In this document: positions 1-15,595 of the stretch, in pieces
Position numbering within the stretch: the stretch's first letter is position 1
Layout of the letters: each line of letters opens with the position of its first letter
Assembly: GCA_000145985.1 (NCBI GenBank)
Contig: CP002098.1
Span: forward strand, 1,282,501-1,346,500
Direction: 5' to 3'
DNA length: 64,000 nucleotides
Origin: Ignisphaera aggregans DSM 17230
GTDB lineage: Archaea; Thermoproteota; Thermoprotei_A; Sulfolobales; Ignisphaeraceae
The notes under the pieces: model-generated
Seen by the model: only the letters and a program-made list of their open reading frames with translations
What the model was told of the DNA's origin: nothing
Database searches by the model: none
Made by a program: the position numbers and the translations under genes

Positions 1-1440
<1,440 letters not shown>

Positions 1441-3793: not shown

Positions 3794-4051
3794 ATGGAAA
3801 GACAATGTAAATATATAGTAGAATTGATAGATATAGAGGGATACGCAATGATAGGAATGATAAAAGATTTAAGAATAGCTCAATGCAAAGGTGGTGCATA
3901 TATAGAGACAACGCTCAGTAATAATGAAAAACTATGCACTAGATGTATGGATGCCAAGACCATAGAATTAAGTAGAAAAGTTATAGACTTTTATGCAACA
4001 CTAAATAGAAAAGGGATGATGATTGGTATTACCACTGAGTCTATACAATGA
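3794..4051 (+). CDS. Small conserved hypothetical protein with three Cys
   Basis: An 85-residue protein starting with ATG 3 bases after argS, so it is almost certainly translated from the same message. Cysteines fall at the start and in LCTRCMD near the middle, so metal binding is possible. I do not recognise the family. Its 3' end overlaps a candidate C/D-box sRNA whose C' box spans the stop codon (4010-4075), so the last codons may be constrained by the RNA rather than by the protein. Confidence 0.65.
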   Translation: MERQCKYIVELIDIEGYAMIGMIKDLRIAQCKGGAYIETTLSNNEKLCTRCMDAKTIELSRKVIDFYATLNRKGMMIGITTESIQ

Positions 4052-4075
4052 AGAGGACACCAGATCTGACTCTAG
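4010..4075 (+). ncRNA. Candidate C/D-box guide sRNA (16S 530-loop guide)
   Basis: Seen: box C ATGATGA 4016-4022, 12-nt guide 4023-4034, box D' CTGA 4035-4038, 9-nt spacer, box C' ATGAAGA 4048-4054, 11-nt guide 4055-4065, box D CTGA 4066-4069. The bases before C (GGG) can pair with those after D (CTC). The D' guide TTGGTATTACCA is complementary to GGUAAUACCA, the near-universal 16S 530-loop sequence, which would place the modified base at the A equivalent to E. coli A532. The D guide matches 8 bases of the 23S in this window (1181-1188). It overlaps the stop codon of the 85-residue gene. Confidence 0.7.
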
Positions 4076-13381: not shown

Positions 13382-14614
13382 ATGGCAATAATAAACAACG
13401 TATTACATGAGATCATTAATAGGAGTAGAGAAGCTGAAAAGATAATAAGAAGCTATATTCATAGAACACCTATTGATAGAAGTGAGACATTTTCAAGAAT
13501 ATCGAATTGTGATGTATACCTAAAATACGAGAATCTACAAAAAACAGGATCATTTAAGGTTCGTGGAGCATTATATAAGGTATACAAAGCTTATATAAAT
13601 GGTGCAAAAGGTGTTGTTGCAGCCTCTGCTGGAAATCATGCACAAGGAGTAGCATATGCGGCTAGGGTATTTGGATTACCTAGTATAGTAGTTATGCCTA
13701 GGACAGCTCCTATATCTAAGATAGATGCTACTAAAAACTATGGTGCTAAGATAATTCTATATGGCGATATTATTGATGAGGCTGAAGAGAAAGCTAAAGA
13801 GGTAGCAGAGGATCAAGACTTTGTATTTATCCATCCATACAATGATATTGATGTAATAGCTGGTCAAGCTACAATAGCATGGGAGATCCTAGAACAGCTT
13901 AGCAATTTTGATATAGTTGTTGTGCCAATAGGTGGAGGAGGACTTGCATCAGGAATCATTAGCATTATAAAAAGTGTAAAGCCTAGCATAAAAATAGTTG
14001 GTGTTGAGCCTAAAAATGCGCCTAAATTTTATGAGTCATTAAAATGTGGTAAAATTGTAAGTATAGATGTAAAACCTTCTATAGCTGATGGTCTTATCGC
14101 TAAAAAACCAGGGACCTTAACCTTTGAGATAATATCTAAGCTTATAGATGATATAGTTCTTGTAGATGAAGATGAGATAGCTTATACAATGTTTCTATTA
14201 CTAGAGAGAGCAAAGATGTTGGTTGAGGGTGCTGGAGCAGTATCGCTTGCAGCAATATTAAGCAGAAAGATAAGCAATATTGACGGCAAAAAGGTTTTGG
14301 CATTGATAACAGGAGGAAATGTTGATCTAACCTCTATATACAGAATTATATTAAAGGGGCTTCTTGTCTATGGAAGAATAGTGAAGATACGTGGCTATGT
14401 CCCAGATGTTCCAGGTACATTGCATAAGATACTAACTGTTTTGACAAAATATGGATGTAATATATTGGAGATAAGACATGAAAGATATCATGAAAAGGCA
14501 TTACCATGGCATACAGATTTAGAGATACTGATGGAAGTACCATCCAAGGACTATGTAGATCAAATCATCAGCGAGTTAAAATCTATTGGTATAGAAATGA
14601 ATATAGAGAAATAG
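13382..14614 (+). CDS. ilvA: Threonine ammonia-lyase (PLP-dependent, with ACT domain)
   Basis: A 410-residue enzyme deaminating threonine (and probably serine) to 2-oxobutyrate. The PLP lysine is K59 in KTGSFKVRGA; the substrate loop SAGNHAQG and the phosphate-binding loop IGGGGLASG follow. The last 80 residues form an ACT-type regulatory domain (VRGYV... first strand RGYVPDVPGTLHKIL), as in TdcB/IlvA of the one-ACT type, so allosteric control by an amino acid is likely. It follows aIF1 by 16 bases with AGGTTA before the ATG. Confidence 0.92.
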   Translation: MAIINNVLHEIINRSREAEKIIRSYIHRTPIDRSETFSRISNCDVYLKYENLQKTGSFKVRGALYKVYKAYINGAKGVVAASAGNHAQGVAYAARVFGLPSIVVMPRTAPISKIDATKNYGAKIILYGDIIDEAEEKAKEVAEDQDFVFIHPYNDIDVIAGQATIAWEILEQLSNFDIVVVPIGGGGLASGIISIIKSVKPSIKIVGVEPKNAPKFYESLKCGKIVSIDVKPSIADGLIAKKPGTLTFEIISKLIDDIVLVDEDEIAYTMFLLLERAKMLVEGAGAVSLAAILSRKISNIDGKKVLALITGGNVDLTSIYRIILKGLLVYGRIVKIRGYVPDVPGTLHKILTVLTKYGCNILEIRHERYHEKALPWHTDLEILMEVPSKDYVDQIISELKSIGIEMNIEK

Positions 14615-14616
14615 TT

Positions 14617-14678
14617 TTTTATTCAGGGCGAGAGCTCCTCATCACATTTCAGATGGTTTGCATAGTCATCATTATTTC
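14617..14678 (-). ncRNA. C/D-box guide sRNA with canonical C, D', C' and D boxes
   Basis: On the minus strand: box C ATGATGA (14672-14666), 13-nt guide, box D' CTGA (14652-14649), 3-nt spacer, box C' GTGATGA (14645-14639), 12-nt guide GGAGCTCTCGCC, box D CTGA (14626-14623). All four boxes match consensus and spacing is textbook. It starts 6 bases after the stop of the RimK-like gene, so it may be cut from that transcript. Nine bases next to box D pair with 963-971 of the 23S rRNA here (helix 89), predicting methylation at A967 (about E. coli 2469). The D' guide has 7 bp with 987-993. Confidence 0.8.
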
Positions 14679-15595
14679 TAACGTCTTATCATAGACACTA
14701 CATATTTAGCTAGCTTTAGTGCAGGATTTATATTTGTAACCCTTTGTATTCCTCTCCACTGTGGAGATGCATTAACCTCAAAAACTATGTAGCCATCCTT
14801 AGTTTCTGCTACATCTATACCCGCATAATGTAATCTTAAGGTTCTAAGAGTTTTAAATGCTATATCCTCTAATTCACTATCTATTCTGGCAATGGGTTCT
14901 GCATGAGCACCTTGAGCAATATTTGTTTTCCATTCATTAGGATTGTTCTGCACTCTATAATATGCAGCTACAATTTCGTCACCTATAGCTAGAAGTCTTA
15001 TATCTCTTCCCGGTTTCTCAACAAATTCCTGAACATATATAGGTTGTCTTAACTGCGTTAATGTTTTAGCTATAGTATATACAATTTCTGGAGTCTCAGC
15101 TTTAATTATGCCAAACCCCATACTACCTATCATAGGTTTAACAACAACATTTTTCCATTCATTTGCAATTTTAGTTGCAGTAAAATAATCCTCTAAAACC
15201 ACAGTTTTTGGAACTCGTATACCCGCTCTTTCCAAAAGCAATAAGCTTAGATACTTATCCCTTGCAGTTACTATAGAGTCTACGGGATTAACTACAGGTT
15301 TATTCATCATCTCTATGTGTTTAAATACATTTATTCTTCTCAGAAACATCTCAAGTGTGACAGCAACACCTAGATCTCTTAGGATTACAGCGTCAAAATC
15401 TATGGGTTTCAAGGAATTTGTATATACAACAGAGGAATTACCTCTATCTATCAAGGACATGATATCACAAGGCCTTAGATATATCGATGAAACTCCTAGA
15501 GAATCTAATGCTAATAATATCTGTCTTGCACTCCATGGAGGAACAAATCTATCTGCAACTACTGCGACTTTCGCCATGGAGATCGCCTTAATCAT
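14678..15595 (-). CDS. RimK-like ATP-grasp ligase
   Basis: A 305-residue ATP-grasp enzyme of the RimK/MptN/LysX group, which adds an amino acid, often glutamate, to a carboxylate. The ATP-binding elements are seen in order: VVVKPMIGSMGFGI (phosphate loop, about residues 145-160), VQEFVEKPGRDIRLLAIG, and the metal site VFEVNASPQWRGIQ. No LysW-type carrier protein is encoded nearby, so a ribosomal S6- or cofactor-type substrate is more likely than lysine synthesis. A DUF1614 protein is directly upstream on the same strand. Confidence 0.8.
   Translation of the reverse strand: MIKAISMAKVAVVADRFVPPWSARQILLALDSLGVSSIYLRPCDIMSLIDRGNSSVVYTNSLKPIDFDAVILRDLGVAVTLEMFLRRINVFKHIEMMNKPVVNPVDSIVTARDKYLSLLLLERAGIRVPKTVVLEDYFTATKIANEWKNVVVKPMIGSMGFGIIKAETPEIVYTIAKTLTQLRQPIYVQEFVEKPGRDIRLLAIGDEIVAAYYRVQNNPNEWKTNIAQGAHAEPIARIDSELEDIAFKTLRTLRLHYAGIDVAETKDGYIVFEVNASPQWRGIQRVTNINPALKLAKYVVSMIRR

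Follow-up and report, generated by a model that had tools for sequence, protein, structure and literature searches.

The window, by which we mean the whole 64,000-nucleotide stretch of Ignisphaera aggregans DNA that was analysed, carries a four-box C/D sRNA with canonical spacing on its minus strand (14672-14623), and we consider it very probable that this RNA is the Ignisphaera ortholog of sR17 and guides the 2'-O-methylation of A967 and U989 in helix 89 of 23S rRNA. The sRNA lies in the 63-base gap between a gene for a RimK-like ATP-grasp protein and a convergent gene for threonine ammonia-lyase, where the minus strand reads TAG-aaata-ATGATGA-ctatgcaaaccat-CTGA-aat-GTGATGA-ggagctctcgcc-CTGA. 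Coordinates of the individual features are listed in the table.

Table. The sRNA, its rRNA targets and its neighbouring genes, in window coordinates
Feature	Position	Strand	Basis and remarks
C/D box sRNA, sR17 ortholog	14621..14676	-	End-to-end match to Rfam RF01144 and match to model R1; RNA limits approximate
TAG stop of RimK-like gene	14680-14678	-	Sequence
Box C, ATGATGA	14666..14672	-	Sequence, alignment A2
D' guide, CTATGCAAACCAT, 13 nt	14653..14665	-	Core GCAAACC pairs with 23S 987-993
Box D', CTGA	14649..14652	-	Sequence
Box C', GTGATGA	14639..14645	-	Sequence
D guide, GGAGCTCTCGCC, 12 nt	14627..14638	-	Pairs with 23S 963-971
Box D, CTGA	14623..14626	-	Sequence
23S helix 89, 5' side and apical part	963..971	+	Target of D guide, 9 bp; predicted 2'-O-methyl A967; helix 89 from Rfam LSU model
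23S helix 89, 3' side	987..993	+	Target of D' guide, 7 bp; predicted 2'-O-methyl U989
RimK-family ATP-grasp ligase gene	14678..15595	-	TIGR00768, 196.5 bits, over cut-off; PF08443; synteny
Convergent threonine ammonia-lyase gene	13382..14614	+	TIGR01127, 481.5 bits

Boxes C and D agree with the forms expected of an archaeal C/D RNA (RUGAUGA and CUGA), the internal C' and D' boxes are canonically spaced, and the guides of 13 and 12 nt have the usual length of approximately 12 nt. The linker between D' and C' is 3 nt. There is one instance of this strict four-box motif in the window, and there are none in 200 windows simulated with a first-order Markov model. A preliminary description of this DNA had proposed a canonical four-box C/D sRNA behind the RimK-like gene, and the boxes, their spacing and the position relative to the gene can all be read from the sequence. 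It had also placed the start of the RNA 6 bases past the stop codon, which requires a small correction because box C begins after 5.

Both guides display complementarity to rRNA that extends across position 5 upstream of box D or D', as is typical of archaeal C/D RNAs. The D guide forms nine contiguous Watson-Crick pairs with 23S rRNA, so that A967 faces the fifth guide nucleotide counted from box D. The D' guide forms seven Watson-Crick pairs with U989 at position 5, and it begins beside the box with a G.U pair (position 1) followed by a mismatch (position 2). The methylation sites are those predicted by the +5 rule, and we take them to correspond approximately to A2469 and U2491 of Escherichia coli (window position + 1502). 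The preliminary description had reported the same two pairings and the same site at A967; it gave no site for the D' guide, and U989 is added here. In the Rfam structure of archaeal LSU rRNA, nucleotides 958-964 pair with 982-988, and therefore the two guides occupy opposite sides of helix 89, so that the earlier proposal of a common helix 89 target is upheld in the form of its two opposite strands. When the helix 89 stretch was folded in isolation by energy, the curated helix was not reproduced, and we relied on the Rfam LSU structure instead. The sRNA almost certainly directs methylation of one nucleotide on each of the two opposite strands of this helix, which lies close to the catalytic centre of the ribosome.

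The target search covered a 1423-nt fragment that constitutes the 3' half of 23S rRNA. When shuffled guides were compared with the same fragment, 9 bp were reached by 6% and 7 bp by 15%, and therefore each pairing by itself is weak. Both pairings located at most 40 nt apart were obtained with 0.06% of shuffled guides.

Representatives of the sRNA are found throughout the order. A sequence-only covariance model (R1) built from 19 orthologs (alignment A2) matches 120 of the 197 genomes of the same order at E <= 0.01, some of the weakest matches being to the boxes only, and in a phylum-wide sample it yields a single match outside the order, which is weak and partial. The RimK-like gene itself is present in 52 of 60 genomes searched. 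Directly behind it, all ten Ignisphaera congeners carry a C/D RNA whose cores are GCAAACC-like and GCTCTCGC, and additional genera of the family as well as Sulfolobaceae-like genomes share this arrangement. It is also kept in other families (G035, G036, G045, G029, G012 and G033). Four genomes have the sRNA 1-3 kb from the RimK-like gene (G025, G044, G054 and G042) and two have it elsewhere in the genome (G024 and G034), with both guides retained in every one of these six. The preliminary description had named missing guide conservation among the findings that would count against it, and what is found is that guides, boxes and gene position are kept across the order; this conservation removes the remaining doubt regarding the sRNA. 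Two genomes of family f4, G020 and G049 (loci L085 and L084), have a helix 89 with GGATTGC as the D' target and GAGAGTCC as the D target. An sR17 ortholog was not found in either genome, and the combination is consistent with joint loss.

Guide-rRNA pairing was compared in the 33 genomes for which the sRNA and the genome's own 23S helix 89 are both readable. D guide positions 4-9 are paired in 32 genomes, as is position 5 (A967), the exception being G050, whose guide is shortened beside box D and was therefore read out of register in the scoring. In the D' guide, positions 3-6, including position 5 (U989), are paired in all 33. We had expected guide and rRNA to covary strictly, and the covariation proved to be partial. 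Compensatory changes are seen where rRNA U965 faces a guide A (five genomes, three families) and where C972 faces a guide G (two genomes, two families). Changes that are not compensated consist of C965 opposite a guide A or T in 10 of 32 genomes, and of a guide A opposite C972 in eight Ignisphaera genomes. What stays constant is a core of GAGAGC (966-971) in the D target and GGUU (987-990) in the D' target, and the predicted sites A967 and U989 fall within it.

These comparisons bear on the possibility that only the D guide directs methylation, such that A967 is modified, U989 is left unmodified and the D' guide is weak or serves purely for docking. Such an arrangement would explain why the D' pairing is the shorter of the two and carries a mismatch and a wobble beside box D' in this genome, why it shrinks to 6 bp in some Sulfolobaceae-like genomes, and why box D' is degenerate in some relatives (for example G029, G012 and G042). 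However, the uniform pairing of D' positions 3-6 in the 33 genomes and a D' core (AAACC) kept as well as the D core both speak for a functional guide, and we therefore judge a single active guide to be unlikely. The features that count against our preferred assignment as a whole are the sR17 score of the window copy (30 bits against a cut-off of 36), the partial covariation, the short D' pairing that is imperfect beside the box, and a target search confined to the 3' half of 23S rRNA, with better targets possible in 16S rRNA or the 5' half of 23S rRNA.

Two variations among the orthologs should be mentioned. In one Sulfolobaceae-like genus (L058, L064 and L073), an extra base lies between the guide core and box D, and therefore the predicted D site moves from the equivalent of A967 to that of G966. 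In six genomes of other families (G034, G060, G067, G074, G110 and G134), the D'-C' linker is predicted to fold into a hairpin (3-9 bp), the sequences being unrelated to one another (loci L114 in G034, L125 in G067, L117 in G074, L121 in G110 and L123 in G134). The hairpins would fit C'/D' k-turns that are capped by a stem in those species, where Ignisphaera has a short k-loop.

Rfam model RF01144 (sR17) aligns with the window RNA from end to end with 30.0 bits (E 1.6e-5 in a 181-base search), which is below its gathering cut-off of 36 bits. Among genomes of the Sulfolobaceae-like family f11, the ortholog of G055 scores 63.3 bits and those of two others score 39.8 and 40.0 bits, within a family range of 32.6-63.3. 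Given that box-only matches elsewhere reach approximately 26 bits without the guides (for example L032), we abandoned the RF01144 score alone as a basis for orthology, which rests instead on guides, targets and neighbourhood. All three are held in common with sR17 sequences that score above the cut-off: boxes, guide order and the D guide core CUCGC correspond, the alignment covers the full length with a short insertion, and the Sulfolobaceae-like genomes have the same RimK-like neighbour. The window RNA differs in its D' guide, which reads GCAAACC where the top-scoring sequence has AAAAACC. On these sequence grounds, we regard it as an ortholog of the known sR17 that the Rfam model misses, and we do not claim formal Rfam membership. 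A link to the sR17 of Pyrococcus and the Thermococcales was also sought with the Rfam-consensus sequence TGATGANNNGGTCTCGCMCTGA; a scan of 84,980 genomes returned two Anaerolineae contigs only, and the link was dropped.

RNAs of this class are 50-65 nt long and bind L7Ae, Nop5 and fibrillarin through their C/D and C'/D' motifs, and the window RNA would assemble with the same three proteins. The resulting RNP would pair with both sides of helix 89 in the pre-rRNA before the helix closes, the D guide directing 2'-O-methylation of A967 and the D' guide that of U989, as the +5 rule predicts. Because both guides need an open helix, binding should delay closure of helix 89. The sRNA is probably co-transcribed with the RimK-like gene upstream of it, and would then be released when the 3' end of the transcript is processed, and trimmed around the RNP; such co-transcription and trimming are described as common for genes of this sort by Breuer et al. 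2021 (PMC7994747).

The delay in closure could itself be the main purpose, the sRNA keeping the strands of helix 89 apart until late assembly with methylation being secondary. Guides that cover the two paired sides of the helix are in keeping with this idea, and similar roles are proposed by Dennis et al. 2015 (PMC4644070). However, the almost invariable pairing of position 5 in either guide is a pointer to methylation, and we consider a mainly chaperone-like RNA to be quite improbable. If the sequence were instead a terminator or regulatory element serving the convergent gene pair, with an accidental likeness to a C/D RNA, its filling of the gap and its start 5 bases past a stop codon would be in keeping with that role, yet this is very hard to reconcile with guides and boxes that are kept away from the RimK-like gene in G024 and G034 and that match rRNA. 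A chance match, for which the rates for single shuffled guides could be cited, is refuted by the joint rate and the order-wide conservation, and its likelihood is practically negligible.

We therefore return to the double guide for methylation. The sRNA is an ordinary member of a known family that stands out for the fidelity of its guides and of its gene location across the order. One double guide keeps both targets across an order that spans Ignisphaera and the Sulfolobaceae, and in many families it keeps its place beside the RimK-like gene as well. Orthologs such as the window RNA are missed by the Rfam sR17 model, which is too narrow. Methylation of helix 89 at approximately A2469 and U2491 follows as a specific prediction, and the tractable species Sulfolobus acidocaldarius is suited to testing it. 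We also offer, as a speculation that we think is probably wrong, the view that sR17, a double guide fixed in its synteny throughout the order, binds both strands of helix 89 in a coupled manner and thereby serves as a checkpoint in the assembly of the peptidyl transferase centre. If this were true, the sR17 guides would be much more strongly constrained than is typical of guides in archaea.

As portrayed in two surveys of archaeal C/D RNAs (Dennis et al. 2015, PMC4644070; Breuer et al. 2021, PMC7994747), the guides of these RNAs evolve rapidly and are often lineage-specific. The window RNA shares with the RNAs described there its four boxes and two guides, closely spaced targets within one rRNA, and a gene that overlaps or touches the 3' end of a protein gene. 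In contrast to the drift that PMC4644070 stresses, its guides are kept over a whole order. The main text of that 2015 survey does not count helix 89 among its methylation hotspots, and neither helix 89 nor A2469 is mentioned there or in the other papers searched. The main text of PMC10516650, a paper on the S. acidocaldarius ribosome, is likewise silent on H89 and on methylation. For S. acidocaldarius, the helix 89 targets may have been recorded before, for example in Omer et al. 2000 or in the target table of PMC4644070.

Two paralogs of the RimK-like ligase were found in this genome, counting the neighbour of the sRNA; the latter passes no equivalog cut-off, its MptN-like score being 215.8 of the 350 bits needed. 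Finally, the window includes a second C/D box sRNA candidate at 4016-4070 on the plus strand, with the layout ATGATGA-ttggtattacca-CTGA-gtctataca-ATGAAGA-ggacaccagat-CTGA, which overlaps the stop codon of an ORF at 3794-4051. No good target for its D' guide was found in the 3' half of 23S rRNA. Its D guide forms 8 bp with 23S rRNA around G1184, and six of the ten congeners, as well as two further genera of the family, show conservation of just this piece of DNA.
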